In this document: piece by piece, positions 1-36,994 of the stretch
Position numbering within the stretch: the stretch's first letter is position 1
How the letters are laid out: every line of letters starts with the position of its first letter
NCBI RefSeq assembly: GCF_947039605.1
Contig: NZ_CAMQZG010000033.1
Coordinates: 1-36,994, forward strand
Direction: 5' to 3'
From: an uncultured Clostridium sp.
GTDB taxonomy: Bacteria; Bacillota; Clostridia; Clostridiales; Clostridiaceae
DNA: 36,994 nucleotides
Notes under the pieces: generated by a model
What the model was told of the DNA's origin: nothing
What the model saw: only the letters and a program-made list of their open reading frames with translations
Database searches by the model: none
Made by a program: the position numbers and the translations under genes

Positions 1-49
1 ATCTACACAGGCGAAGACACTCTTTCCCTACACGACGCTCTTCCGATCT
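1..49 (+). other. Illumina P5/i5 sequencing adapter (contamination)
   Basis: Positions 1-8 (ATCTACAC) are the end of the Illumina P5 sequence, 9-16 (AGGCGAAG) match the TruSeq HT i5 index known as D505, and 17-49 are the 33-base Read 1 primer site ending CTCTTCCGATCT. Genomic sequence starts at 50. Translated on the minus strand, the adapter adds the tell-tale residues DRKSVV and a stop (28-30) to the neighbouring gene. This marks a true contig end with an untrimmed adapter. Confidence 0.98.
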
Positions 50-1676
50 ATTCCATTATCTAAACTATGCTCTGGATTATCAAGCGGCACTGCATCTGTT
101 AAAATAACATCTGTTGCATCTGAAGGTCCAACGTTGCTTACTACTAAATCATAAATAGCCTGTTCTCCTGCTACAACTGGAATAGGAGTAATACCTTTTA
201 TAACACTTATATCTGCAAGTTGCTCTACTGGGTCAGTTACTGTATCTGTATTATTATCAAGATTTGGATCTGGTGTTGTACTTAGTGCTGTTGCTGTATT
301 TACTATGTCACCTACAAATCCTGAAGGAACATCTCCTCTTATTAAAACATCTACTGCACCACCACTGACTATTGTTCCAAGGTTTGTATTTCCACCCCAT
401 ACAGCCCATGAGATACCATTATTTAAGCTTATTTCTGGATTTTCAAGTGGGATAACATCACTTAAATTTACATTAAGTGCATCTGATGGACCTACGTTGC
501 TTACTACAAAACTGTATATAGCTTCTTCTCCAGCTACTAAAGGATTAGTATCAGTTGTTTTAACAATACTTACATCCGCTAAGTTTGTTACACTAGTTTT
601 TACAGTATCTGTATTGTTTGTTATATCTGGATCTGGTGTCGGACTTGTTACAGTTGCTGTATTATCTATACTTCCTACTATACTTACTGGAATTATACCT
701 CTTAATAAAATACTTTCTGATGCACCTACACCTAAAGTTCCTATATTTAAATTTCCTAGCCAAGGGTTCCAACTTAAACCATTATCCACACTAAATTCTG
801 GAGTATCAAGTGGCATTACATCCACTATATCTACATCTAAAGCATCTGAAGGTCCTGCATTTGATACTGTTAAAGTATAAACTAACTCTTCTCCGGCAAT
901 TACAGGATCTGGACTTGCTGTTTTAATGATACTTAAATCTGCAGATGTTTCAACTTGTGTTGTAATTGTATCTGTATTATTTGCTGAAATAGGGTCTGGA
1001 GTTGTACTTGCAACTGTTGCTGTATTATTTATACTTCCAACTGTATCTTGTGGAATTATTCCTCTAATTAAAATATCTTGTGTTTGTCCTGGTATGAAGG
1101 TTCCAAGAGCTATATTTCCTATCCATAAAAACCAAGTTGTTCCACCATCTAAACTATATTCAGCTCCATTTAAAGGAATGACATCAGTTATAGTTACATT
1201 AGATGCATCTGATGGGCCTGCATTCATTACTGCTAAAGTATAAATTAACTGTTCCCCTGCAATTACAGGATCTGGACTTCCAGTTTTAATAATACTCATA
1301 TCCGCTAATTGAACAATTAGTGTTGTCACTGTATCTGTATTATTACTTAAATCTGGATCAGCTGTTGTACTTACTACTGCTGCTGTGTTAACTAAAGTTC
1401 CTGTTGCATCATGTGCAACATCTCCTCTAATTAAAACTGTAATAGTTGTGAATGCTGCTATTGTTCCAAGACTTAAATTTCCAAGCCATGGTAGCCATGT
1501 TGTCCCCCCATCTAAGCTATACTCTACATTACTTATAACTCCTGGAATTGTATCTGTTAAATCTACATTTTCAGCATTACTTGGTCCTGTATTGTTAATT
1601 ACCAAAGTATAGACTATCTGTTCACCTGCATTTACGGGATCTGGACTTGCTGTTTTAACTATGCTTAAGTCTGCTA
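50..1676 (-). repeat. Tandem DUF11-coding repeats, about 366 bp unit
   Basis: Four full copies and one partial copy of a 366-bp coding unit lie head to tail, with unit boundaries near 1676, 1311, 945, 580 and 214. The encoded units are similar in protein but clearly diverged in DNA, so this is an old duplication series. More copies probably lie beyond the contig edge. Confidence 0.85.
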
Positions 1677-4600
1677 CATTAACTGTTGCTCTTACTTCAT
1701 TTGATGTTTCAGTTATTGGTACTCCATTGCTTTGATAATCTACATCTGCAGAATTCACTATCGGATTTAGCACTGGAATTGTATTTATTATTATGTCAAA
1801 CTCAACTGTTACAACTTGACTAGGTGCTATAAGATTTGGTAGTGTTACTCCAACATTCGGGTCATCTCCACTTAGAACTGCATCAACTGTTAATGTTCCT
1901 GGATCATAACTTGTCCCATTAGGAACTACATCTGTTAAAATAGTATTTATTGCATCAATATTACCTATATTAGTTACTTCTATGGTATACGTGATAGTAT
2001 CACCAACATCAACAACATCTGTACTTTGACTCTTAACAATGGTAAGTTCTGCATCACCTACCATTTCTACTAAATAGTCCTCTACCTCTCCATCTACTGC
2101 TGCACCAAAACTTCTTGTATCTTCATCTGTTGGTCCACCATTATTTACAAGCGTATCTGTTGTTATCCTTACTCTCATAAAAGTATCAGTATCTAAAGTT
2201 GTAGGAATTCCTGTAAAGTCTAAATTTATTGTTTGAACGCCTACTTGACTTGGAATAATTGTTGTAAAACTTTCATTTGTTTGGAAGATACCATCTTGGT
2301 TATAATCTATCCAAGCATATATATTAGCAGTTTGTCCTGTATTATTAGTAAAATCAACTGGAACACTGAAATTTACTATTGCTATCGGTATTTGTACCGG
2401 TGCTATAAGACCCTCATCTACATCACCTGTTGCTATTGGATTTTGTAATCCATCATCTTCTGCAGTTACTCCCTGTCCTACAAATAATTCATTTATAATT
2501 TGATGTCTTGGTCCATCATTAGAAAGTAAAGTTCTATAATTCCCTGGACTTGTTCCCACTATAATATCTGGTGCATCACCAAAATCAAGCTCAATAATTG
2601 CATCTAAGCACATTGTTGCATCATTTCTGATTGTTCCAAGTGTTTGTGAGAATAAATCCCCGTCCATAGTTCCCCCAATATTTTGCCATCTTACAACATC
2701 ACCTGTGTCATTATCTATACCATAAATAAATCCTTGTGCATCTGATGCTATGCCTCCATATTCCAATGGAAATCCTATATCTGTTGGTAAAAGATTGGTT
2801 TGTCCTGTTGCAGGATCCATTGTTAAGAACTGTGTTGGTGGATCTGCTATTGAATATAGCAATCCATCATTGACATTATAAGTCCAGTCTCCTTGTGTAA
2901 GAGTTCCTACTGGAAGAACCGGTGTAGATGTTGTCGTTGTAATATAGCCATTAGTTGGATCTACTAATTGACCATAAGTTAGAGAACCCGGTCTTAAATC
3001 TACTGTCCAATAATAATCTCTATTTGATCTTTTAAAATAATAAAAACCTTGATCATCAATGGCTCCAACATTAAGTCCTGCTGTATCAGTTACATTTGGA
3101 ATAGGACCCAAGTCCACTACATTTCCAAGTGAATCTATTTGAGCTAAATTTCTTTGTATTGAACTTCCACTACCATCAAAAATAGTTAAATTACCATAAA
3201 TATAATCATCTAAGATATTATATCCTATGGCATTTAGAACATATCCCATATCTATATTTACAATTTCAACATCCCCAGTTACAGTGTTAATTCTTCTGAA
3301 TTCTGAATTTTGAAGTAATTCTGCAACTACTTGGTACATAAATGTATCACATATAAAAGCTTCCAATATAAATGTTTGAACTTCATTACTAGTTACAGTT
3401 GTTACTGGATTTCCACCATAATCATAATCTAGATCAGCTGTATTTAATAAAATATTCGGATTTGGAATACTATCTACTGTAACTTTAAAACTTACCGTAG
3501 TACTAGCTCCTGGAAGTATATCCGGAACGCTTATACCAATTTCTGGATTTGCACCTTCATCTGCTACCCCATTAACAATAACACTGCCACCAACAAAACT
3601 TGTTTCTGCTGGTATAATATCTGTAATAGTTGTAAGTCCCATAGTTATATTCCCATTATTTTGTATAATAAAACTATACTCTAATTCATCCCCAACCTGT
3701 GCAACTGCTAAATCAACCGCTTTAGTTATTACTGTATTAGCTAAAACATTATTAGTTGTAAAACCAATTGTATTCACCAGATAAGAATCGCCCACAGTTG
3801 TAATTCTGACTACCGCATCAGTTTGTGAATTAGCCATTAATCCACTTACATCTTGAGTATTTACATCCCATCCATGTCTTGAACCACTTGTATTTGAATT
3901 TGTAAATGTGTCATTATTTCTTGTGCCAAAAGTTCCACTTGTGTCTAAATTTCCTGATGAATCTGTTATTATTCCACCAAAAAAGTTTGTAACTGCGTTC
4001 ACTGGCCCTGACAGTGCAGTTAAAGTTCCTGCATCTGGTCCAAAAAGTGCTTGGTCTCCACCAATATCTCCATCACCTTCTTGTGCACTTAAATATAAAT
4101 TACTCTCTATTGGTCCAGTTGGTAAAGTTTCAAATCCTCCAATTGGAATATCTACTGCTCCACTTCCAGCTGTAATTCCCTGTGCCCCTACATATAAATA
4201 TATATTTTTATAGTCTTCCGCTGGATTTTCATAAACAACAGCAAGTGTCCACCCTACATGTGATGTTCTCCCTGAATAATTACTTATATTTGTTATTAAT
4301 GATGGTACTTGTTCTGTTGAATAAGTACCTACACCGACGCCCTGAACTATTGATGTTACATCCGCACTTCTCATATACCATTCAACAGTCGTAAATCCTG
4401 GTGATATATTAGTATATTCCTGTCCTGTTGTAGGATCTGGATTTACTGATATTCCATTAAAAAGAATGGGATCATCAATAAGAGCTACAATTGTATCACT
4501 TTCTGGTGGCTCTGGATTCCCAACAAATATATAATCATATGAAAAGATTGCTCCCCAAATAAGTTCAGCTCTAACAACTGTACTTCCTACTGGAAGAACA

Positions 4601-4812
4601 AGCTGTGCTTCTGAACCATTCTCTAAATAATCTAAAGTTGTTCCTGCTGGAAATGTATTAACTTGATTGGCTAAGTCTAATGAAACAAAAGCTCCCATTG
4701 TACCTTGAACACCAGGCTCATATACATTAGTTTCTTGACTTAAACCTAATGTATTACCAGTTAAGACTAGTCCTCCATTAGTACTTGTTGTATATCTCAA
4801 ATTTAAAGGCAT
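50..4812 (-). CDS. Giant DUF11-repeat/GEVED surface protein, 3' end missing
   Basis: Only about 1587 codons are present; the gene runs into the adapter, so its C terminus is unknown. Order seen: a beta-rich N-terminal region (1-355), a DUF11 domain (about 357-484), a propeller-like DUF6923-type region (487-740), a GEVED domain opening DFGDAPD and ending GEVEDYLV (743-917), another DUF11 domain (918-1045), then tandem DUF11 repeats of about 122 residues starting near 1046, 1168, 1290, 1411 and 1533, the last cut. Repeats share ADxSIxK, AGEQxxYxLxVxNxGPSxA and NNTDTV. There is no signal peptide or transmembrane segment, which argues against Sec export and for mother-cell synthesis and assembly on the spore. 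The start has an AAAGGAGG site 8 bases before ATG. It lies downstream of SPOCS-domain coat genes on the same strand, behind tandem terminators, so it is probably its own transcript. Spore-surface location is inferred. Confidence 0.85.
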
Positions 4813-4945
4813 TTATATTTCCTCCTTTGTGTATATTTTTTATTTTTATAAAACATATTAAATAACTTGCAAATTTCTTTTTAGAAATTTATTTTATAAT
4901 TTATCTTATCCACTCCTTACATAAATTAATTAATTACTAACGTAA

Positions 4946-4975
4946 ATTTTATGTTGGCCTAAAATGTCTGATATT
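4946..4975 (-). promoter_or_regulatory. Possible sporulation (sigma-E-like) promoter
   Basis: Read on the minus strand, AATATC (4970-4975) and CATAAAAT (4946-4953) are separated by 16 bases. CATAAAAT differs at one position from the sigma-E -10 CATACAAT; the -35 is weaker. It lies about 135 bases before the giant DUF11 gene. In DNA this AT-rich the match could be chance. Confidence 0.3.
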
Positions 4976-5062
4976 TATTTTCAGTGAATTTTTTAATTCC
5001 TTATTTTTAAATTTCATTTACATATTTCTCTTTATTTTATGCTTTCCCCTTCAAATTTGGGA

Positions 5063-5097
5063 CAAAAAAAAGTAATATGCTACTGAACATATTACTT
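5063..5097 (-). terminator. Rho-independent terminator
   Basis: Perfect 10-bp arms AAGTAATATG (5070-5079) and CATATTACTT (5088-5097), 8-base loop, and a U-tract on the minus strand from the A-run at 5063-5071. It isolates the giant DUF11 gene from the transcript upstream. Confidence 0.8.
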
Positions 5098-5171
5098 GAA
5101 AATAAAAAATGTAATTAAATCTCTTCTACAGAAATTTAATTATAAAAATATATTGTTTTTTAGCTAACTAA

Positions 5172-5213
5172 AAAAGTTGTAGTTAAATTATAAAGATTTT
5201 AGCAACAACTTTT
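5172..5213 (-). terminator. Probable first terminator of the DUF11-SPOCS gene
   Basis: Arms AAAAGTTGT (5172-5180) and ACAACTTTT (5205-5213) form a perfect 9-bp stem with a long loop and a short U-tract in the minus-strand RNA. It starts 13 bases after the stop codon of the gene ending at 5226. Confidence 0.5.
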
Positions 5214-5225
5214 CCACTTCAACTT

Positions 5226-6755
5226 TTAAGTGTAAAATAAAATGCTTGCTCCTAAGTTAATCTCACTAGGATTTAAAATATCCACTACACTGTATTCTAT
5301 ATTATGAAATATTTCTACACTGTCTCCCTCTTCATAATCTGGTGATAATATAATTTGACTAGTAAAAGGAATACTCCATGTTTTCAGTCTAATTTCAGCA
5401 TCTAAATTCATTACTGCATATTGAACAAGCGCATCTATATGTCCAAAAAATTTCAATTGACATCCTGAAAGTATATTACCATCATGACCTCTAAAGCATA
5501 TTCCTTCAAAAACATATTGTTCATCCACAATTACTTCCATATCAATATCTTCAACAGATACACTCCCTCTACTACACTCTTCTAAATCTACTAATTTATT
5601 TAAACTTACTACCTTAAAATTCATTGCTTTAACTTTAGTTTTTGAAGTAAAAACCTTACTTTCACCTTCTATAAGATCTTCTTGATTCAAAGAATATAAA
5701 CACTTAGCATAAATTCCACTCCTAATCCAACCATCCTTACTTGTTGATTTCACTCTCATTTTATATTCTATATTACACTCTTGCAATGGTTGTAAATCAC
5801 CTATATTCAACAGTGAATCTAATATATCTATATTTATTTTTTGTCCATTGAATATTAGCGTTCCTTTAACAAATTCAAGAGAATAATGTATATCCTCAAA
5901 CAGTTTTATACTAAATAAATTCACTTTTTCATTATTTATAACATTAATTTTATACGTAATAATATCATTAAATTCTACATACTCTTTATTTGCTATTTTA
6001 AAAATATTTAGACTTAAATATTTTTCTTCCTCTGCCTCCCTTAAAACTTCCTCACAATAATTTGATAAATCAAGACCTCTATTTTCATTAGTTTCATACT
6101 CTCTAAATCTTTTCTTTTTCCTTTCATATCCACTAAACTCTTGTTCTATAGTATGATTTCCATTCCACTGAATATTATCCTCATAGTCTTCATTACAGGA
6201 CAATACTTCTATCTCAGTACTTACATTATTTGTGTTAATAGATTCCTTTTCGTTTATTATCACTGTTGAAAAATTTCCTATTGTTTTTGGCATAGGCTCG
6301 GCTATATTTATACTTACTTCAAAAGTTATAATTACTCTTGAATCTCCATTTATTTTAGGAATAAGAAATCCTAGTTGTGGATATGCACCACCTTGAATAT
6401 ATCCATTAAGCTTTAAGCTATTAATTATATATGTTGTCCCTGACGGTAAATTATCCTGCAAAATTATATTATATACTGGTATTCCACTTAAATTATCTAT
6501 AATTACTTTATAACTTAAAATTTCTCCTACACTAATTCTTAATTTATCAACTAATTTATAAGCTTTAAGATTTGTGTAGCTCTTACTTTCTTCATAATTA
6601 AAATTACTGATACTAGATCCAAAAGAATTGATTTCATATTGTTTTTCTTCATCAAAACAGCTAGTAAAAGCTACCTCTCTCCCATCATTCTTTAAATCAA
6701 AACTTATCAAATCAATCCCATTTGAATCATCTACATGATTAATAGAATTGTTCAT
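5226..6755 (-). CDS. DUF11-SPOCS fusion protein, probable spore coat/exosporium
   Basis: 509 residues. Two diverged DUF11 domains (about 63-185 and 246-370) flank a charged linker (186-245, including KKKRFREY), followed by a C-terminal SPOCS/DUF3794-type domain (about 378-509: LVDLEECSRGSVSVEDIDME, then GNILSGCQLKFFGHID). The SPOCS domain is established in the clostridial coat protein SipL. No signal peptide or membrane segment is visible, as expected for a coat protein made in the mother cell. The start has GGGGAGAAGAA just before ATG. An inverted repeat (AAACTTAATT with AATTAAGTTT, about 6773-6800) sits in its leader. It is a diverged relative of the four-repeat DUF11-SPOCS protein upstream, separated from that operon by a hairpin and with terminators after it. 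Function on the spore is inferred. Confidence 0.75.
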   Translation of the reverse strand: MNNSINHVDDSNGIDLISFDLKNDGREVAFTSCFDEEKQYEINSFGSSISNFNYEESKSYTNLKAYKLVDKLRISVGEILSYKVIIDNLSGIPVYNIILQDNLPSGTTYIINSLKLNGYIQGGAYPQLGFLIPKINGDSRVIITFEVSINIAEPMPKTIGNFSTVIINEKESINTNNVSTEIEVLSCNEDYEDNIQWNGNHTIEQEFSGYERKKKRFREYETNENRGLDLSNYCEEVLREAEEEKYLSLNIFKIANKEYVEFNDIITYKINVINNEKVNLFSIKLFEDIHYSLEFVKGTLIFNGQKINIDILDSLLNIGDLQPLQECNIEYKMRVKSTSKDGWIRSGIYAKCLYSLNQEDLIEGESKVFTSKTKVKAMNFKVVSLNKLVDLEECSRGSVSVEDIDMEVIVDEQYVFEGICFRGHDGNILSGCQLKFFGHIDALVQYAVMNLDAEIRLKTWSIPFTSQIILSPDYEEGDSVEIFHNIEYSVVDILNPSEINLGASILFYT

Positions 6756-6842
6756 TTCTTCTCCCCTTACAAAACTTAATTTTAAAAATAAATTAAGTTT
6801 ATTTCTAGTCTATATACTTATATGTATTTTTCTAAACTTAAA

Positions 6843-6892
6843 ATTAATACCTTAACATCTATCTTTATCTAGTTAAATGTTAAGGCATTAAT
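6843..6892 (-). terminator. Hairpin terminator of the SPOCS operon
   Basis: A 16-bp stem, ATTAATACCTTAACAT (6843-6858) with ATGTTAAGGCATTAAT (6877-6892), is fully paired in minus-strand RNA because the only mismatch becomes G-U. It lies 15 bases after the last gene of the operon. The following U-tract is short, so termination may be partial. Confidence 0.55.
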
Positions 6893-6906
6893 TAATTTAT
6901 TTTATT

Positions 6907-7509
6907 TTATCTTGTGTAAGTTGCGTAATTAGTTTTTCCACCTTTTTGATTGCATGATGATGCATAAGTATCATTACAGTCACAATCATTTTTAGGTTCA
7001 CATGGATTTACTGAATAACATGGATGACATGGATTTACTGGTGGACAGTTACAATCACATTCACTTGGATCATATGGTTTTACTACTGGATTGTAAGGTA
7101 AACATGGATTATATCCACCGCCATTTCCATTTCCACATGGTGCACAAGCTCCACAATTTCCACCTTGAGTATCAATTACAAGTTCTTGACCTGTAATTGC
7201 TTTATTTATAATAATTTTATAACATTCATTATCATTATTATCACAAACATCAAACTGATAAAATCCTTCACAATCTGTTATTGTATGAGCTACACCTTCA
7301 TAATATTTTCTATTACCTTGGCATACCACTCTTACAAGTTTCACTAAGCTATTAGCAACCGGCTCATTACAACAGTTTAAAACTTGTCCCCAAATTCTTT
7401 TTGATTCAAATTCATTAACTTTTACATCTGCTCTAATTTCAGCGCTATTATCATTTTTCCCTACATGTATATCTATTGAATTTCCTAAAACTCCACTTGG
7501 TTTTGTCAT
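6907..7509 (-). CDS. Cys-rich protein with CnaB/carboxypeptidase-regulatory-like domain
   Basis: 200 residues with 19 cysteines. Residues about 35-110 look like a small beta-sandwich of the CnaB/carboxypeptidase-regulatory type: IWGQVLNCCNEPVANSLVKL, then TDCEGFYQFDV. From about residue 116 the tail is rich in Cys, Pro, Asn and Gly (GACAPCGNG, SECDCNCPP, NPCHPCYS, NDCDCND). No signal peptide is visible. The start is preceded by AAGGAG. It sits 65 bp after the DUF11-SPOCS gene on the same strand and is followed by a hairpin, so it is the last gene of that operon. Heavily cysteine-rich small proteins are common in spore outer layers, where disulfides crosslink; that role here is inference from composition and context. 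A metal-binding role is the alternative. Confidence 0.75.
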   Translation of the reverse strand: MTKPSGVLGNSIDIHVGKNDNSAEIRADVKVNEFESKRIWGQVLNCCNEPVANSLVKLVRVVCQGNRKYYEGVAHTITDCEGFYQFDVCDNNDNECYKIIINKAITGQELVIDTQGGNCGACAPCGNGNGGGYNPCLPYNPVVKPYDPSECDCNCPPVNPCHPCYSVNPCEPKNDCDCNDTYASSCNQKGGKTNYATYTR

Positions 7510-7574
7510 ATCTAAAACACTCCTTGTTTCTTAAATTTTTACAAATTTTCTTCTTATTGTTCATTTCATTTATA

Positions 7575-9560
7575 TTAGTTGATTTTAGCTATTATTAAAA
7601 ATATTACATTTACCATTGCACTTCTGCAATCAATTAAATCTACTTCCATATTTTCAAGTTCTGTTGATACTTCAACATATGAACCTTGAACATAATCTGG
7701 TGGTAAAATTAAGAAACTACTAAATGGTACTTCACAATGTGCTGAATGCATAGGTTGAGTTGGTAAAAGTGCTGTATATTCTATACTCATTTTTAATCTT
7801 CCATGAATAATTAGTTTAAATCCACTTAGATTTTGACCTTCATGTGATTCTGAAACCATAGTTTCAACTACATAACTATCATCTACAAGGACCTCAACTA
7901 CTACATCATCAATTTCTTCTATGTCTGGTTTTGCAAGTGGTAAAGTAATTGACTTGCTTAATGCTTGTTGCTTAAATGAAGATATAGTTACACATATTAA
8001 AACCATAGCTACATCTGTTTTCTTTTTATTAGTTGCGCTATTTGGTAACTTATAACAATAAGTTGCACATGCTTCATTTTTGATGTATCCAGAGCATGTT
8101 CCACTAATAACTTTAGCTTTATAGTCAATTATTACTTGACCCCCTGCTGGTATACGTCCAACATTTAATCCTTTTTCTTTACTTCCCGTATTAACTAATA
8201 CACCATTGACATATACTGAATTCGGCACAAATTCAAGTGCAGGACTTAATAAATCTTTAACTACTACATCAAAGAGATCTATAGTTCCTGTATTTCTTAG
8301 AATAACTTGATAATCAATAATATCATTTAATTGAACTTCATCTGTATTAGCTTGCTTTTCAATATTAAGCTGTGCTACTTCAACTACTACTTGATAAAGA
8401 TTGCTTTCTATTTCACCTATTTTCACTAATCCATCTGCTGGATCAATATATTTATAAACCGCAGTTGATTGGTTATCAATAGTATCTCCTGATTTGCTTA
8501 CAACTAATGCATCAAAGAAAACACTTACAGATGAATTAACACCCACAGGTCCTATTTGCACCCCAGCAAGTATATCTGCATCTGGAAGGCTCATTCCATT
8601 GATTTTAACACTACCTTCAACAAAGTCTAAATCCGGACTTAGTAAGTCCTTAACAACTACGCTATCTAAAATATAGCCTGTAGTATTTGTGAAAATTAAC
8701 TCATAAGTTAAAATTTCACCTACTACAATTTCTGATAGATTAGATGTTTTAATTAATGTTGGAGTTTCTAAATTTATAAAGTCAGTTTGTACTATTACTA
8801 CCTCAGTTTCTTTTGTGCCTGTGATTAAAGTATCTGGTAATTCATAGTCATACTGTGCATATGCTTTATTTTCTATTGGATCTTCTACAGCCCCAATGAC
8901 TTCGACTTCATATACAACTACAATATCATCACCTTCAAAATCTATTTCTCCAACATTTAAACCTACACTTAAATCTGGATCATTAGCTACTATCCCATCA
9001 ACAGTAACTGCTCCAGAAACTAATTCTGTAGATGGACTTATTAAATCTTTAAGTATTATATTTAAGAGGTTAATAGTTCCTGTGTTTGAAAGAGTAACTG
9101 TATAGGTAATAATATCTCCTAATTTTACTACACCTGGAGTTCCTACTTTTATAATACTAAGCTCGGCTGTTTCAACATCTATCATAAGTGGGTCTGGAGT
9201 GCTTAAATCATCTCCAATTTTCAACTCCCCATCTACAGGATCAATATAGTTATATACTACAGTGGCTGTATTATCTAAACTTCCAGTTGTATTTCCTATA
9301 ACTTTTGCATCAAATGTTATCTCAATTATAGCAAGATCTGCTAGTGGCCCCACTTCTACACCTGCTAATATATCTGCAAGTGGCGCTCCTGTCCCATTAA
9401 CTTTAGCACTGCCTTGAGCAAATTTTAAATCTGGATTTAATAAATCTTTAATTACTACACTATTTAATAAAAAACCTGTATCATTTGTAAATTCTAATGT
9501 GTAAGTTATCACATCACCAACAATTACCTCTACACGATTAGCTGATTTTACTAATGCCAT
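7575..9560 (-). CDS. Four DUF11 repeats plus C-terminal SPOCS domain, probable spore surface protein
   Basis: 661 residues: four DUF11 domains (about 2-130, 132-255, 270-390, 392-525) and a C-terminal SPOCS/DUF3794 domain (about 530-661: LPLAKPDIEEIDDVVVEVLV, GQNLSGFKLIIHGRL, then HCEVPFSSFLILP). Domain 1 resembles 3 (both carry KDLLxPDLxF and ADILAGVxxGP) and 2 resembles 4 (both carry GTIxLxxxxxKDLxSP and GLNVG), so the array arose by duplicating a two-domain unit. There is no signal peptide or membrane anchor. The start has GGTGAGGTGAG before ATG, and the gene begins 21 bases after the stop of the second SPOCS gene, so the two are cotranscribed. The architecture suggests a coat-docking SPOCS foot with a DUF11 stalk; this is inference, since SPOCS function is known mainly from SipL. 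Confidence 0.85.
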   Translation of the reverse strand: MALVKSANRVEVIVGDVITYTLEFTNDTGFLLNSVVIKDLLNPDLKFAQGSAKVNGTGAPLADILAGVEVGPLADLAIIEITFDAKVIGNTTGSLDNTATVVYNYIDPVDGELKIGDDLSTPDPLMIDVETAELSIIKVGTPGVVKLGDIITYTVTLSNTGTINLLNIILKDLISPSTELVSGAVTVDGIVANDPDLSVGLNVGEIDFEGDDIVVVYEVEVIGAVEDPIENKAYAQYDYELPDTLITGTKETEVVIVQTDFINLETPTLIKTSNLSEIVVGEILTYELIFTNTTGYILDSVVVKDLLSPDLDFVEGSVKINGMSLPDADILAGVQIGPVGVNSSVSVFFDALVVSKSGDTIDNQSTAVYKYIDPADGLVKIGEIESNLYQVVVEVAQLNIEKQANTDEVQLNDIIDYQVILRNTGTIDLFDVVVKDLLSPALEFVPNSVYVNGVLVNTGSKEKGLNVGRIPAGGQVIIDYKAKVISGTCSGYIKNEACATYCYKLPNSATNKKKTDVAMVLICVTISSFKQQALSKSITLPLAKPDIEEIDDVVVEVLVDDSYVVETMVSESHEGQNLSGFKLIIHGRLKMSIEYTALLPTQPMHSAHCEVPFSSFLILPPDYVQGSYVEVSTELENMEVDLIDCRSAMVNVIFLIIAKIN

Positions 9561-9581
9561 GTTTTCTCACCTCACCTTTTA

Positions 9582-10064
9582 TTATAATTTCTTGACATCT
9601 ACTAAAAGCATTACACACTTATGAATTGTTCTTTCATCAAGCATTCTGCTTTCTACACATTCAACGTAAGGTGTTATACTTAATCTACCCTTTTTAAATA
9701 TTTTACAAATATCTTCCCCATTAATTTCTTCTGGAACAATAATAAATAAATTTTTTATTGTTTCAAAATGAGCTGCATGAACTGATTGTGTACAATGGTC
9801 TGCAACATAAGTTATCTTTTCTTTAATTCTAAGTTTTACTACAAGCTTGTAACCTGTTAGAATTTGACCTTCATTTGATAAACCTTTTTCTGTTTTAATA
9901 AGTTTTTTATCTTCTACTGTAACATCTACTAATGTTTTTAAAAGTCTTTCCATGTCTGGTTTTTGACAAGGAATTGCTAATATTTCGTTTATTATCTCCT
10001 CTTTAAAGTATTTAGCATATTCTGGAATACTTTGATTTGGAGAAAAATCGCTTCTAAATGACAT
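9582..10064 (-). CDS. SPOCS-domain (DUF3794) protein, probable spore coat
   Basis: 160 residues from the preferred start (MSFRSDFS, ATG at 10062-10064), which has AAGGGGGT about 8 bases upstream. A longer start at 10094 would overlap the preceding gene and lacks a site. The whole protein is one SPOCS-type domain: AIPCQKPDMERLLKTLVDV, GQILTGYKLVVKLRI, then ITYVADHCTQSVHAAHFE. It shares the layout of the adjacent SPOCS gene and is probably its duplicate, but the phenylalanine-rich segment after HAAHFE is diverged (KNLFIIVP instead of PFCEYVVLP). Gaps of 13 and 21 bases to its neighbours show an operon. Likely role: a structural coat or exosporium component assembled on the forespore surface; no enzyme motif is present. 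Confidence 0.8.
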   Translation of the reverse strand: MSFRSDFSPNQSIPEYAKYFKEEIINEILAIPCQKPDMERLLKTLVDVTVEDKKLIKTEKGLSNEGQILTGYKLVVKLRIKEKITYVADHCTQSVHAAHFETIKNLFIIVPEEINGEDICKIFKKGRLSITPYVECVESRMLDERTIHKCVMLLVDVKKL

Positions 10065-10077
10065 ATTCACTACCCCC

Positions 10078-10563
10078 TTAGCATAAATCTGCAACTGTTA
10101 ATAATGTAACATTTCCAAATAAGCATCTACAATCTTGTTGATTAACGTAGACATCTTCTATATATATATCTGGAGCTACTATACTTAAGCCTTTAAAGCC
10201 TAATGGTAAAACTACATACTCACAGAATGGAATTGTAACATGAAAACTGTGCATGCTTTGACATGGTTCATCTGCAACATAATTTATTTTTAAAACTATA
10301 TCACCCATAACTAAAAGTTTATTTCCTGTTATTTCTTGACCTTCAGCTGAAATCCCCTTAGGTGTCTTAACTATTTTATATCTGACAACCTTTTTCTTAA
10401 TTACAACTTTAACTACTTGCTCTATATCTGGCTTTTCTTCTGGAACACAAAGATTTACATCTATTGTTGCTTGTTTAAAGCTCTTAGTACTTAATGCACA
10501 CTCGCCTTTATCCATTAGATCAATACCTTGGTACTCTATAAGATTTCTTACAAAACTACCCAT
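10078..10563 (-). CDS. SPOCS-domain (DUF3794) protein, first gene of spore-surface operon
   Basis: 161 residues. After a short lead the protein is one SPOCS/DUF3794 domain: VPEEKPDIEQVVKVVIKKKV, GQEITGNKLLVMGDI, INYVADEPCQSMHSFHV, PFCEYVVLP. This domain is established in clostridial SipL and related coat assembly factors; here it stands alone, without the LysM domain of SipL. The start has a strong AAGGAGG site 5 bases before ATG. It is the first gene of a tight run continuing to 6907. The upstream AT-rich region has an imperfect sigma-K-like -10 but nothing I would call as a promoter. Likely a coat or exosporium morphogenetic protein. Confidence 0.8.
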   Translation of the reverse strand: MGSFVRNLIEYQGIDLMDKGECALSTKSFKQATIDVNLCVPEEKPDIEQVVKVVIKKKVVRYKIVKTPKGISAEGQEITGNKLLVMGDIVLKINYVADEPCQSMHSFHVTIPFCEYVVLPLGFKGLSIVAPDIYIEDVYVNQQDCRCLFGNVTLLTVADLC

Positions 10564-10693
10564 ACTTACCTCCTTAAAATAAAAATCTTATTTAATATAT
10601 ACTATTTCTTCACTACCTAAGTTGATACAATTATTTTTTTTTCAGAAAAATAAAAATACATGCTCTAATCCTTTAAAACATGCCTTATAATTA

Positions 10694-10750
10694 TCTTAAA
10701 ATAACTTATTATTATATTCTCCACACCTATAATAATAAGTTGTTTTAAGA
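10694..10750. repeat. Long inverted repeat with 22-bp arms
   Basis: Arms 10694-10715 and 10729-10750 are complementary at 21 of 22 positions around a 13-base spacer. The single mismatch is a G-U pair in plus-strand RNA and A-C in minus-strand RNA. It has no adjacent U-tract and lies between the pepF terminator and the SPOCS operon. It could be a hairpin, an operator or a remnant of a mobile palindrome. Confidence 0.7.
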
Positions 10751-10772
10751 TTTCGAAAATTATCAGACAAAT

Positions 10773-10808
10773 AAAAAATGACAAGTTCTAAAAAGCTAGA
10801 ACCTGCCA
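10773..10808 (-). terminator. Rho-independent terminator of pepF
   Basis: A 12-bp stem, 10779-10790 with 10797-10808, is complete in minus-strand RNA when two G-U pairs are allowed; it has a 6-base loop and a U-tract from 10773-10778. It lies 18 bases after the pepF stop codon. Confidence 0.85.
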
Positions 10809-10825
10809 TCTTCAAATTTATTATT

Positions 10826-12604
10826 TTATATTTCTTTGCTAAGTTTTATAAATTCTTCTATATCTTCCTCTATTGTTTTAAGAGAATTTCTCCAGAAGTC
10901 TTCTGACTCTATATCTATATTCATAAGTTTTGTTACATCTGCAAGTTTGTTCTTACCTGTAACGGCTAAAAGTTTATCATAATCTTTTACAAACTCTTCA
11001 CCTTTATTTAGGTACTCTGCATATAACCCTTTTGCAAATAATAATCCAAATGCATATGGGAAGTTATAAAAGTTTAGGTATGCACTATAATAATGTGGCT
11101 TACATGCCCACATGTATGGGTGAAGGAAGTCATTGTCAAGTCCATTTCCATATGATTTTTTTTGTGCATCTATCATTATTTCTTTAAGTTCTTTTGCTGA
11201 TAATGAACCATTTTTTCTTCTTTCGAATAACTCTGATTCAAATAAAAATCTACTTAATATATCAACTATTATTTGTGCACAGTCTGAAAGTTCTGCTTCT
11301 AATATAGAAAATGCTACTTTCTTTTCTGAATTTTTAATAGCTGCCTTTTTAACTATTGTTTCACAGAAAGTTGAAGCTGTTTCTGCTATTGGCATTGGAT
11401 AATCAGCATTTATTACACTCTCATCTTTTAAACACTCTCCATGATATCCGTGTCCAAGTTCATGTGCCATTGTTGTTATATCTGTAAAGTTACCACCAAA
11501 GTTAAGCATTACTCTGCTCTCTTTAAGTGAGTGAACTCCCTGACAGAATGCACCACCAACTTTTCCTTCTCTTGGGTATACATCAACCCATTTCTTATCA
11601 AATGCAGTTTCTGCAAAGTTTCTAAGTCTATCTGAGAATGTTCCAAAGTTTTCAAATACAAAAGCCTTAGCCTCTTCTAGTGTATAAGTTTTATCTCCAC
11701 CCTCTAGTGGTGCAAACATATCATAGAATGGCAATCCATTTTTATGACCAAGCATTTCACCTTTTCTTTTAAAGAATTTTTCAAATACAGGAAGACTTTC
11801 CTTCATAGCACTAAGCATTGCGTCTAAAGTTTTCTTACTCATTCTTGATTTTAATAAAACATCTTGAAGAGGTGATTCAAATCCTCTTGCCTCACAAGTT
11901 GTTATAACTTCGCCTTTAATTCCACAAAGGGAAGCTGCTACTGAGTTTTCTATCTTCTCGTAAGCTTTAAGTTCTGCAAAGTAAGCTATTTTTCTTACTT
12001 CTGGGTCTTTGTCATATGCAAGATTTCTTACCATTGTAAGTGGCATTTGCTTTTTCTCACCATTAAGTTCTATATCTACTAAAAGTGATGAAGTTTCAAG
12101 TTCCATTAGTTTTTCAAAAGCACTTGAACCTGTTGTTTGCATTTTTGCAATCATAAGTTCTTCTTTATCACTTAAAATATATTTACTGCTTTCTTTAATT
12201 TCTATAAGGTGGAAGCTATGATCTTTTAAAAGTTCTGATTTTTCTGTAATAACTTCTATATTATCTATATTTCCTATCCATTTTGAAATTCTAGCACCTG
12301 TATCAGCAGTTTTTGCTACAAGTTTTTGAAGATTTTCAAGTGTTTTAAGTGCTACTTCATTTTTAGTATCAACACTTAGTGTAAGTTGTGTATATAAGAA
12401 TAAATCACTTGTTAAATATTCTAGTTCCTGAGTATTCTTTATATAACGCTCTAGTCTTTGCACTATATCTTTATCTGAATCTATTATGCTATCCGCAAAT
12501 CCTTTATAATTTGCAACTATATTTTCTAATTTTTTATAATCATTTTTAAACTTCTCACTATCAAACCCTGTGTAAAGTTCATCAAGACTCCATTTTACTT
12601 CCAT
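10826..12604 (-). CDS. pepF: Oligoendopeptidase F (M3 family zinc metallopeptidase)
   Basis: 592 residues, the usual length of PepF. The zinc site is HELGH (381-385) with the third ligand expected at Glu408 in PIAETASTF, the standard M3B arrangement. The N-terminal region is helical, as in the family's substrate-channel domain, and GHGYH and PHYYSAYLNFYNFPYAFG are typical. The enzyme cleaves short peptides (about 7-17 residues) in the cytoplasm; no signal peptide is present. In other Firmicutes PepF has been linked to peptide turnover and, when overexpressed, to reduced sporulation in Bacillus; whether it acts on sporulation here is unknown despite the adjacent spore locus. Start supported by AAAGGAAAGGTG before ATG. 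It appears monocistronic, with a clear terminator. Confidence 0.95.
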   Translation of the reverse strand: MEVKWSLDELYTGFDSEKFKNDYKKLENIVANYKGFADSIIDSDKDIVQRLERYIKNTQELEYLTSDLFLYTQLTLSVDTKNEVALKTLENLQKLVAKTADTGARISKWIGNIDNIEVITEKSELLKDHSFHLIEIKESSKYILSDKEELMIAKMQTTGSSAFEKLMELETSSLLVDIELNGEKKQMPLTMVRNLAYDKDPEVRKIAYFAELKAYEKIENSVAASLCGIKGEVITTCEARGFESPLQDVLLKSRMSKKTLDAMLSAMKESLPVFEKFFKRKGEMLGHKNGLPFYDMFAPLEGGDKTYTLEEAKAFVFENFGTFSDRLRNFAETAFDKKWVDVYPREGKVGGAFCQGVHSLKESRVMLNFGGNFTDITTMAHELGHGYHGECLKDESVINADYPMPIAETASTFCETIVKKAAIKNSEKKVAFSILEAELSDCAQIIVDILSRFLFESELFERRKNGSLSAKELKEIMIDAQKKSYGNGLDNDFLHPYMWACKPHYYSAYLNFYNFPYAFGLLFAKGLYAEYLNKGEEFVKDYDKLLAVTGKNKLADVTKLMNIDIESEDFWRNSLKTIEEDIEEFIKLSKEI

Positions 12605-33808: not shown

Positions 33809-36800
33809 CTATTTAGTTAATGGTTTTTGTGTTGTTAATCCATCTTTAGTTAGGTATAAAGTTATTGATTTTGATACGCTATACTTTTTAACTAACTTTC
33901 CATCTATAAAAATATTATTAAGTGTAATATTTGTTCCAGCTTTATAATTTATTGTTATTGAATCACCATAGTTGAATACTTTTCCATTAAATTCCGTATA
34001 TAAGTTCATTGGATTAGGATTACTCTCTTTAATTTTAACTCCTGCTATACTAGTTCCATTTGAACTATCTAATGTAATTCCAATCCCATCTATTTTATTA
34101 TTAGGATAAAAACTTCTCAGATCTGCACCTTGCTTCTCTGAAATTTTCATTTCTTTAGTATTAAATCCTATTGTCCCAAGATTGTAATTCCATCCATCAT
34201 TTATTATTATTGAACTATCTGCAAGTTCTATCTTATTAACTACTGAAGGATTTACTATTGATTGTTTTTCTCCATCTGTTATAACACAAATTTTTGTTGT
34301 TATTAATATTGGTTTTATTGTTGTTATTTCTAATTTATAATCACCTTTTGTATTAGCTTTTGTGCTAAATGTTTGACCATTAGCTTCTATTTTTACAATT
34401 TGATTTGGAATTCCAACTCCCTCTACCATTGCTTTATAAACAGCCTCATTCTCAATTCCTGTTGTAACTATAGCCTTAGCAGTTATAGTTTTTTTAGAAT
34501 TAATTTCCTTTGTTGTTTTAAATAGATTTCTAAATTGAGGGTCATTTCCAAGATTAAAATTATAATAAAGTGCATGATTCCAAACTTCACCTGTATGTTC
34601 CCAAGCTTTTGATGGATCATTTTCAAAATAACTTGTATAGCTATACTCTGGGTTCCAAAGTGTAGCTTGAACTGAGAAGCTATGTCTATTAGTATCTACG
34701 TATTTATTACAATCAAACATATGCCAAGTTGTATCTACTGTCATCCATTTATTTTCTGAAGCTATCCAAACTTGGTTCCATGAATGATACCCTCTATATC
34801 TTTGATAATTGCTTGGATAATTTGCATATCCTGTAACAATTCTAGTTACAAGCCCTGCATATTGCCCCATTATAGCAAATAGCTTTGCTTTATTAAAACA
34901 AACTCCACCATGTTCATAAGTATTTATTGTATTTCCACCAACATTCTCATAAGCTACAGGGCTTACAATATTAAATATTGCTTTAGCTTTTTCAACATCA
35001 CTTGTATCTCCTTTAATTGCTGAGTTTACTCTATCTTTCATAGCCTGATTCATTACCATACTATCAGCAATTCCTTTAGACCCACTATCCCAGCCACTAG
35101 CTGTAAGTCCTGTTGAAACTATTCCATTTCCTGAATAATAGTTTGAAACTTTGAACCCTCCATTATAAACACTTTGATCTTTAATTGCATCAACTAAACC
35201 ATTCTCTGTAATTATAAATGATATATTATCAATTCTTGGAGTAACTACCTTTCCATTTGAAAAAACATTTAACCCTATTGAACCATGATTTTGATATAAA
35301 CTCACAGTATCACCAAAATCAAAACTTATATTATTAACTGCATTATAAATATCTCCTAAAGTATTTGTTCCATTAAAAGATTTATTTAAAATAATTTGAC
35401 CATCCTTTGATTTAACCACAATTCCAAAAACTTTGTAATTTGCCTTAGAATTTATTTGTTGATTTAGATTTGCGGGCTTAACACTTGGGTTATAAGTAGT
35501 TGGATTATTATCTACTGGATTTACTGTTGAATTAGAATCAAACCAATTCATTTTCATTGTAACTGGGTTAAATAATAATTTTCCATAATACCCTGATTGT
35601 CCTGCCATATAAACTCCACTATTGCTTTCAAGCATATTTGAAGCACTTGGATATATAGTTTGTGCTATTTGACCTACACTTTGAACTATAACAGCAGTTG
35701 AAGTTGTAAATCCTTTGTTTGAAGTAACTTTTATAGAAAACTTTCCATTACTATCTGATTTTCCTATGAAATTTTCCCCATTAACACTAACTGTCAATTC
35801 TGTATTCGCTGTTGTTTTTCCTTTAATATCTAAATTATTAGCTTGCGCTGATGTTAAGACATTAAGAGGTTCTATAATTGTAGGATTTTCATATTTTACT
35901 AAACCATTTTGGGTTATTCTAAAATATTCAAGTGCTCCTGTTGAATTCCCTATTAAAGTTTTCGAATTATTTATTTCTACTTTCCCTTGACCTTTATCAA
36001 AAGAAATCCCTACTATATCACCAAATTTAAATCCAAGTTTATTTATTGAATTAGCTAGCACCCCTGTATTATCTGCACCTTTAAACATTACATTTTTTAT
36101 AACCTTACCTGTTTCTCCATCATATAACCCAAACCCTATAAATGGACTTTGATTATTTTGTCCAAGGAATTGATTCCATCCTGAAGTGTTAACCTGCATT
36201 GTCTGAGGGTTAAAGCTAATATTTAAAGCATCACTTCCCCAACCATTAATTACTTTAAGGTAACTACTTAAAATTCCAAACTTATTTCTATTAAATATAA
36301 CTTTAACTACCTGTTTAACTCCTTGTCCATTTAGAATACTAATTTCAGACCCTGCTTTTACTGTGCTTGGAAGTTTTATCTCAAAAGCTCCGTTAGAATT
36401 TGATTTTGAAGTATAGTCTTTGCCATTTGCAATAACCTTTATATTAGAATTTGCATCTATAGTACCAGTTACTAATGTATTATCACCTTGATATTCTGCT
36501 TTATATGTTTTATTATTAGCTACTAAAGAAACTATTCCACTTTTATTTAGCTGTAAATATATATTATTTTTGTAATGATTAGTTCCTACATTTATATTTG
36601 CATTAGAATTACTCACTATATGAAGTATATCTCCATATTCAAAACTTTTTCCATTTAATACTTCATTAACTCCTTGTGCTGGTTTTACACCACCTTTGAA
36701 AATTTTACTATAAAGTGATTCTCCTTTATTATTTAAAAGCTGAACTGTTAGTGAATCACTCCCCTTATAATAAGGATTTGTCTGAGCCCAATCACTAGAT

Positions 36801-36994
36801 ATTGCAAGTTTATTATCTCCTGTAAATCCTACTGAAAACATATGTTGATTCCAAACATTATTTACAGATACACTCTGTCCCTGAAGAACAAAATCTTTTT
36901 TATTTAAAGTTACTTTAACCTGTGATTCAAGCTCATCTGCTGGATATACCAAAACTGTATCACCAAGCTTTCCATTAATAACAGTATTAACTAT
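33809..36994 (-). CDS. Large surface protein with transglutaminase-like domain, 5' end missing
   Basis: The frame is open to the window edge, so the true start lies beyond 36994; a TTG at 36952 is not a real start (residue numbers here count from it). About 1061 residues are visible. Four related beta modules of about 110-130 residues (near 12-140, 235-355, 445-600, 920-1047) share FxxxTxxM, GxGxxLxxxxG and FxxGDxxxIxx, resembling the putative mucin/carbohydrate-binding module (pfam03272 type). Short Ig-like modules (e.g. ANTELTVSVNGENFIGKSDS) lie between them. The transglutaminase-like domain at about 640-760 has Cys685 (GGVCFNKA), His723 (YHSWNQVW) and Asp740 (VDTTW), an intact triad. It may be a protease or crosslinking enzyme. 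No wall anchor is seen at the C terminus, which ends just after module 4. Probably secreted and cell-surface-associated. Confidence 0.85.
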   Translation of the reverse strand: MVNTVINGKLGDTVLVYPADELESQVKVTLNKKDFVLQGQSVSVNNVWNQHMFSVGFTGDNKLAISSDWAQTNPYYKGSDSLTVQLLNNKGESLYSKIFKGGVKPAQGVNEVLNGKSFEYGDILHIVSNSNANINVGTNHYKNNIYLQLNKSGIVSLVANNKTYKAEYQGDNTLVTGTIDANSNIKVIANGKDYTSKSNSNGAFEIKLPSTVKAGSEISILNGQGVKQVVKVIFNRNKFGILSSYLKVINGWGSDALNISFNPQTMQVNTSGWNQFLGQNNQSPFIGFGLYDGETGKVIKNVMFKGADNTGVLANSINKLGFKFGDIVGISFDKGQGKVEINNSKTLIGNSTGALEYFRITQNGLVKYENPTIIEPLNVLTSAQANNLDIKGKTTANTELTVSVNGENFIGKSDSNGKFSIKVTSNKGFTTSTAVIVQSVGQIAQTIYPSASNMLESNSGVYMAGQSGYYGKLLFNPVTMKMNWFDSNSTVNPVDNNPTTYNPSVKPANLNQQINSKANYKVFGIVVKSKDGQIILNKSFNGTNTLGDIYNAVNNISFDFGDTVSLYQNHGSIGLNVFSNGKVVTPRIDNISFIITENGLVDAIKDQSVYNGGFKVSNYYSGNGIVSTGLTASGWDSGSKGIADSMVMNQAMKDRVNSAIKGDTSDVEKAKAIFNIVSPVAYENVGGNTINTYEHGGVCFNKAKLFAIMGQYAGLVTRIVTGYANYPSNYQRYRGYHSWNQVWIASENKWMTVDTTWHMFDCNKYVDTNRHSFSVQATLWNPEYSYTSYFENDPSKAWEHTGEVWNHALYYNFNLGNDPQFRNLFKTTKEINSKKTITAKAIVTTGIENEAVYKAMVEGVGIPNQIVKIEANGQTFSTKANTKGDYKLEITTIKPILITTKICVITDGEKQSIVNPSVVNKIELADSSIIINDGWNYNLGTIGFNTKEMKISEKQGADLRSFYPNNKIDGIGITLDSSNGTSIAGVKIKESNPNPMNLYTEFNGKVFNYGDSITINYKAGTNITLNNIFIDGKLVKKYSVSKSITLYLTKDGLTTQKPLTK

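Follow-up and report, generated by a model that had tools for sequence, protein, structure and literature searches.

A clostridial cluster of SPOCS and DUF11 genes that probably encodes a spore-surface assembly related to the Clostridium taeniosporum appendages

The closest described relative of the gene cluster analyzed here is the spore-appendage locus of Clostridium taeniosporum, in which nine genes follow one another in the order CRD1-HYPO1-HYPO2-HYPO3-CRD2-P29a-GP85-P29b-CL2 (PMC5749712). The P29 proteins and GP85/CL2 are the proven ribbon proteins; the P29 proteins are DUF11-only subunits, GP85 is a collagen glycoprotein, and CL2 is collagen-like (PMC5749712). DUF11 occurs in four of the nine locus proteins, and HYPO2 and HYPO3, which are similar to the C-termini of CRD1 and CRD2, were labeled hypothetical in a locus termed possibly unique among clostridia; published lengths are 564 (CRD1), 158 (HYPO2), 160 (HYPO3), 413 (CRD2), 269 (P29a), and 269 (P29b) amino acids (aa) (PMC5749712). 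SPOCS domains are named after SpoVID, CotE, and SipL (PMC10867305); that of SpoVID is a coat interaction domain binding CotE and SafA (PMC10867305; see also PMC6282716), and CotE trimers form a meshwork (PMC11980541). DUF11 also occurs in F-Anchor-3 of F-ENA, an anchor of clostridial spore appendages whose docking domain is CsxA-like (PMC11952670). Here we analyze a 36,994-nucleotide (nt) contig of an uncultured Clostridium sp. ("the window", 27 open reading frames (ORFs); contig C33 in our labels, where C marks contigs of this genome, L fetched loci, and G genomes of relatives), at one end of which six genes encode SPOCS, DUF11, and cysteine-rich proteins. We put the probability at roughly 65% that the genes specify a spore-surface assembly of the same kind as the C. 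taeniosporum appendages, made by the mother cell and placed on the forespore surface without Sec export; its gene content suggests that the cluster probably builds a structure on the spore exterior.

The six ORFs lie in a row on the minus strand. The contig end bounds them on one side and, on the other, a 592-aa gene at 10826-12604, which we take to encode an oligopeptidase. In transcription order they encode two standalone SPOCS proteins (SPOCS-A and SPOCS-B), a 661-aa protein, a 200-aa cysteine-rich protein, a 509-aa protein, and the N-terminal part of a giant protein. The original prediction had described six consecutive minus-strand genes of this architecture, and both the ORFs and their domains were borne out by Pfam together with a SPOCS profile of our own. 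Pfam finds seven DUF11 stretches in the giant, four in the 661-aa protein, and two in the 509-aa protein, and places DUF6923 at residues 502-736 and GEVED at residues 830-915 of the giant. For SPOCS (PF12673; Pfam cut-off 23.6 bits), SPOCS-A (29.9 bits) and the 661-aa protein (36.6 bits) score above the cut-off and SPOCS-B below it (16.2 bits, E 0.012); the 509-aa protein has no match at E<=0.1. Our profile, built from 93 domains of other genomes with the window's own genome and a near-duplicate locus (L098) left out, raises the count from two of four to all four (E 3e-49, 8e-48 for SPOCS-B, 2e-41, and 6e-13 for the 509-aa protein, where the domain falls at residues 379-505), with zero matches in the remaining 23 of the 27 window ORFs or in 415 reversed decoys. 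Since the training domains were gathered with a window-seeded profile, this leave-out test is not fully independent.

We compared the locus with that of C. taeniosporum by way of a go-between genome of the same family (G107). There, nine genes stand in the published order on 9.27 kb, with lengths nearly as published (556, 161, 158, 160, 413, 269, 289, 254, and 483 aa; the 254-aa gene has a possible earlier start, in a 273-aa frame). Internal identities, with published values in brackets, are 33.8% (34%) for HYPO2-HYPO3, 33.7% (36.6%) for CRD1-CRD2, and 28.5% (about 29%) for P29a-CRD2. P29a and P29b are 47% identical versus 87% in print, so G107 is a relative and not the C. taeniosporum strain described. 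Its HYPO2 and CRD2 exceed the Pfam cut-off for SPOCS, HYPO3 falls below it (E 8e-4), and CRD1, which has no Pfam SPOCS match, is recognized by our profile only; the protein at the GP85 position combines collagen repeats with a C-terminal BclA domain. A genome of the same genus as the window (G002) has the genes in order from HYPO1 to P29b, with a CRD1-like gene about 30 kb off and no CL2 found adjoining them.

Against G107, SPOCS-A is 54.5% identical to HYPO2 versus 37.6% to HYPO3, and SPOCS-B is 55.5% identical to HYPO3 versus 35.4% to HYPO2; their lengths, 161 and 160 aa, compare with about 158 and 160 aa for the HYPO2/HYPO3 pair. The 661-aa protein (34.9% identical to CRD2) and the 509-aa protein both join DUF11 repeats to a HYPO2/3-like C-terminus, the architecture of CRD proteins. 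The cysteine-rich protein shares 47.4% identity across 114 residues with the protein that G107 has in the HYPO1 position, the published HYPO1 sequence being outside this comparison. Via G107, the gene core of the window amounts to five of the nine genes of the C. taeniosporum locus.

The two standalone SPOCS types recur as a unit. Types A and B form separate groups in a tree built on 115 SPOCS domains of the fetched loci (136 columns, L098 excluded; many forks stay open). Type A is followed by type B on the same strand, 9-66 bp apart, in 14 of 14 cases; these come from five genomes in three genera, and six of the pairs belong to the genome of the window. The distances within A mirror those within B with r 0.94, a value reached in 0 of 20,000 permutations, although the loci were fetched for holding SPOCS genes and operon co-inheritance alone would yield such a correlation. 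By our reading of the gene tables, a DUF11-SPOCS gene shares the neighborhood of nine of the 14 pairs. A direct counterpart of the window locus is found in G069, with identities of 78.9% (A), 78.8% (B), 50.8% (the 661-aa CRD-type protein), and 67.7% (cysteine-rich protein), and with no separate counterpart of the 509-aa gene. Its intact giant has 2762 aa, 17 DUF11 domains, and a C-terminal SPOCS domain, and the window giant is 34.7% identical to it over 1494 residues; from this counterpart we infer that the window giant also had a C-terminal SPOCS domain. A search of other clostridia for the same gene set, proposed with the original prediction, thus yielded the A/B pair in five genomes, the counterpart in G069, and the nine-gene order in G107. 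The spore-surface reading is supported by the shared gene core, the SPOCS identity of HYPO2/HYPO3-type proteins and of the DUF11 C-termini, the A/B pairing, and the C-terminal SPOCS domain of the G069 giant.

In the assembly we envisage, a hetero-oligomer of SPOCS-A and SPOCS-B would serve as a base on the coat or exosporium, with CotE of bacilli as a parallel; DUF11 proteins would plug into this base via their C-terminal SPOCS domains, and their DUF11 arrays would project as stalks or fibers. One giant DUF11 protein would provide the projecting part, where C. taeniosporum uses P29a/P29b and GP85 ribbon subunits. The predicted surface appendage, in which SPOCS is the foot and DUF11 the stalk, is partly supported, as it fits both the five shared genes and the coat-interaction SPOCS domain of SpoVID. 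The HYPO1-type protein might crosslink the assembly, a guess by analogy with C. sporogenes, whose exosporium is proposed to have cysteine-rich proteins in its basal array (PMC4942563). It had been predicted as a 19-cysteine protein of CnaB type: the 19 cysteines are there, and the protein itself has no Pfam match even at E<=1. Among nine aligned homologues, six match CarboxypepD_reg (best E 9e-4) and two SdrD_B (best 4e-4), which makes a CnaB/prealbumin-like fold plausible.

The same proteins could instead make up an inner layer, either coat or basal exosporium, with SPOCS-A/B and the DUF11-SPOCS proteins forming a sheet or matrix between layers. The known SPOCS proteins SpoVID, CotE, and SipL are coat morphogenetic proteins, CotE makes a meshwork (PMC11980541), the C. 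sporogenes proposal places cysteine-rich proteins in a basal array (PMC4942563), and P29 and GP85 are missing from the window locus, all of which would suit such a layer. We nevertheless regard it as unlikely: long DUF11 arrays, such as the 17 domains of the G069 giant, would suit a fiber better than a sheet, and the closest described locus makes appendages (PMC5749712).

A spore-surface assembly of this kind would need no secretion, as the forespore lies within the mother cell. The six proteins had been predicted to lack signal peptides and membrane anchors, and indeed none of the six has a hydrophobic N-terminus or an LPXTG motif (by a crude hydropathy measure rather than a signal-peptide predictor, and with the giant's C-terminus missing); membrane or exported neighbors score high in the same measure. 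Exported DUF11 surface proteins, by contrast, have a signal peptide and a wall or membrane anchor, neither of which is seen in the six window proteins (giant incomplete). Could the giant DUF11 proteins be vegetative-surface adhesins that leave by an unrecognized export route, with the adjoining SPOCS genes as bystanders? Their head would fit, since residues 1-350 of the window giant match DUF11 proteins in 35 plasmid records (Priestia 25, Thermus 8, Paenibacillus 1, Deinococcus 1). The lack of a signal peptide-like N-terminus, the fusion of DUF11 and SPOCS in single proteins at several loci, and the presence of SpoIVA in every genome positive for our SPOCS query make adhesins very improbable.

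That query, a SPOCS alignment (A1), was positive in 48 of 206 family genomes at E<=1e-3, a threshold that includes weak, SipL-like matches, and in 9 of 393 class genomes at E<=1e-8. SpoIVA is present in all of these (48/48 and 9/9), and in 194 of the 206 family genomes and 287 of the 393 class genomes overall; this co-occurrence is consistent with a spore role, not proof of one. Three genomes that lack an A1 match (G198, G200, and G204) also have strong homologues of the cysteine-rich protein (E<1e-20). The original prediction had held that the locus should be absent from non-sporulating lineages: no A1-positive genome lacks SpoIVA, but Thermus and Deinococcus share the giant's head.

Several points weigh against a spore-surface assembly of the C. 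taeniosporum kind. The A1-SpoIVA association is weak (P 0.037 in the family and 0.057 in the class, with no kinship correction). Thermus and Deinococcus do not, to our knowledge, sporulate, so the head they share with the giant is not spore-specific. The best sigma-K match before SPOCS-A has two mismatches and an 18-nt spacer, with none better; the G069 counterpart has a perfect site. Perfect sites stand before 5 of 119 SPOCS/DUF11 ORFs (0.8 expected) and 17 of 261 other ORFs (0.9 expected) of the same loci, and sites with one mismatch before 26 (11.5 expected) and 48 (22 expected), respectively; being equally common before other ORFs, they are not used as evidence here, and sigma-E sites show no excess in a scan of the same loci. 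The window locus holds no P29-type ORF, and contig C33 has no collagen match, hence no GP85 or CL2 in the locus; in the rest of the genome, the best of the P29 matches listed lie inside larger DUF11 frames, and one collagen gene scores above the cut-off, on C53. The comparison with C. taeniosporum runs through G107, with the published chromosome sequence itself outside it. Five of the 14 A/B pairs have no adjoining DUF11-SPOCS gene, and all six class genomes examined outside the family have SPOCS genes and no DUF11-SPOCS fusions, so the DUF11 variant seems narrower than SPOCS arrays as such. Finally, the putative SPOCS tail of the window giant would lie beyond the contig end.

That end is an assembly break. 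The Illumina adapter there makes the last residues of the large protein false, and its C-terminal end is missing; an adapter (L024 1-12) likewise truncates a DUF11 gene at the start of contig C62, giving false termini in both. The C62 gene, a 2586-aa DUF11-SPOCS ORF, is broken inside its DUF11 repeats, as is the window giant, and because both break in this way the two may, as a guess, be parts of one gene. In G107, homologues of the peptidase beside the window locus and of an aminopeptidase beside C62 are on different contigs; G107 alone among eight relatives closely matches both, G069 and G002 matching one each. The C62 SPOCS domain has no resolved position in the tree. Adapter remnants were also seen at L032 (contig C35) about 1-48.

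With the A/B pair present six times in this genome and the 509-aa protein's SPOCS domain so divergent, on a very long branch of the tree, the window locus might also be a decaying or unexpressed duplicate among several paralogous copies; frames that stay open up to the assembly break, and A and B proteins 79% identical to their G069 counterparts, leave this next to no likelihood. No support emerged for a plasmid or phage origin: plasmids match the 661-aa protein only partially, at <60% identity (20 records), SPOCS-A has no match among the plasmid records searched, and the 661-aa protein has none among the phage records searched.

Table 1. Features of the SPOCS/DUF11 locus in the window.
Feature	Position	Strand	Evidence
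SPOCS-A, standalone SPOCS, 161 aa, HYPO2 counterpart	10078..10563	-	PF12673 E 6.5e-7; A clade in tree
SPOCS-B, standalone SPOCS, 160 aa, HYPO3 counterpart	9582..10064	-	own profile E 8e-48
661-aa CRD-type protein: four DUF11 + C-terminal SPOCS	7575..9560	-	Pfam
200-aa protein, 19 Cys, counterpart of HYPO1-position protein	6907..7509	-	homologue alignment
509-aa CRD-type protein: two DUF11 + divergent C-terminal SPOCS	5226..6755	-	Pfam DUF11; own profile SPOCS
Giant N-terminal part: conserved head, DUF6923, GEVED, seven DUF11; meets assembly break	50..4812	-	Pfam
Illumina adapter at contig end, non-genomic	1..49	.	adapter core located
Intergenic stretch upstream of SPOCS-A; ribosome-binding site before ATG	10564..10825	-	sequence reading

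For SPOCS-B, an ATG start at 10064 is more likely than a TTG at 10094. Upstream of SPOCS-A, an inverted repeat of about 22 nt per arm was seen by eye at window 10695-10749, one arm core of which is unique to that place among the fetched loci, and a weak terminator-like site of the upstream gene lies at 10813-10774 (3 such sites versus 2.4 expected in the region scanned). At the other end of the window, 33809-36994 on the minus strand holds an incomplete repeat protein of at least 1061 aa that runs off the contig and, to our eye, presumably has a transglutaminase-like core. Among the fetched loci, two of G004 (L106 and L107) have an N-terminal SPOCS domain in 351- to 2450-aa proteins with no DUF11 matches, a different architecture, and at L108 12000-17200 (G019) six consecutive SPOCS-only ORFs adjoin two SPOCS-tailed proteins of 1628-1629 aa. 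Genes for glycosyltransferases (GT2 or group 1) adjoin several SPOCS loci, at L092 1851-3014, L033 11144-12289, L099 8130-9185, L096 4682-5809, L097 17273-18409, and L102 14749-15873, which is of note given the glycoprotein nature of GP85.

The constant A/B pair of SPOCS proteins at a C. taeniosporum-type locus offers a concrete hypothesis of ribbon attachment, namely SPOCS-SPOCS docking, and the recurrence of the core with differing projecting parts suggests a single modular scheme that may lie behind some uncharacterized clostridial spore appendages. A tentative extension, on which we would not yet bet, is that SPOCS-A/B pairs provide a docking base on clostridial spores in general: every paralogous locus would lay its own patch or layer and receive different SPOCS-tailed cargo (P29/GP85 ribbons or giant DUF11 fibers), and one genome could produce several appendages. 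If so, SPOCS would serve the spore as the sortase motif serves the cell wall. The locus had been put forward as undescribed, which is only partly right because the C. taeniosporum locus is in print (PMC5749712); new are the SPOCS identity of the previously unassigned HYPO2 and HYPO3, the invariable A/B pairing, the presence of the core in further genomes, and the giant DUF11 variant in place of ribbon subunits. Among the open-access papers searched, which leave out most subscription papers, three name two or more of DUF11, SPOCS, DUF3794, and SipL, and DUF11 is in none of these three; on C. taeniosporum appendages since 2018, the relevant items found there were the genome paper and a review of Bacillus cereus appendages.

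How, then, does the locus compare with known systems? SipL of Clostridioides difficile and SpoVID of bacilli share the SPOCS domain with the window proteins and differ in carrying a C-terminal LysM domain, SipL consisting of three DUF3794 domains and LysM (PMC6436350); none of the six window proteins has a LysM match (Pfam, E<=0.1), and the SipL candidate of this genome is a separate 520-aa SPOCS protein on contig C22. CotE of bacilli resembles SPOCS-A/B in size and role only, as a small SPOCS-class oligomerizing morphogenetic protein that would work alike; it is one protein, whereas SPOCS-A and SPOCS-B are two different proteins encoded as a pair, and the Pfam results at E<=0.1 contain no CotE-family match for the window proteins. 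F-Anchor-3 of F-ENA likewise has DUF11 repeats in a protein that carries its own docking domain, but has DUF4183 and CsxA-like domains where the window proteins would dock by SPOCS (PMC11952670); DUF4183 has no Pfam match in the six window proteins, the giant being incomplete. The C. taeniosporum locus differs in having P29a/P29b, GP85, and CL2 where the window has a giant DUF11/GEVED protein, and in its gene order after SPOCS-B. It shares with the window two small SPOCS proteins in A-B order, DUF11-SPOCS proteins of CRD type, a cysteine-rich protein in the HYPO1 role, and a single direction of transcription. Judged by these shared genes, the window locus is a variant of that locus and belongs to a kind already known.

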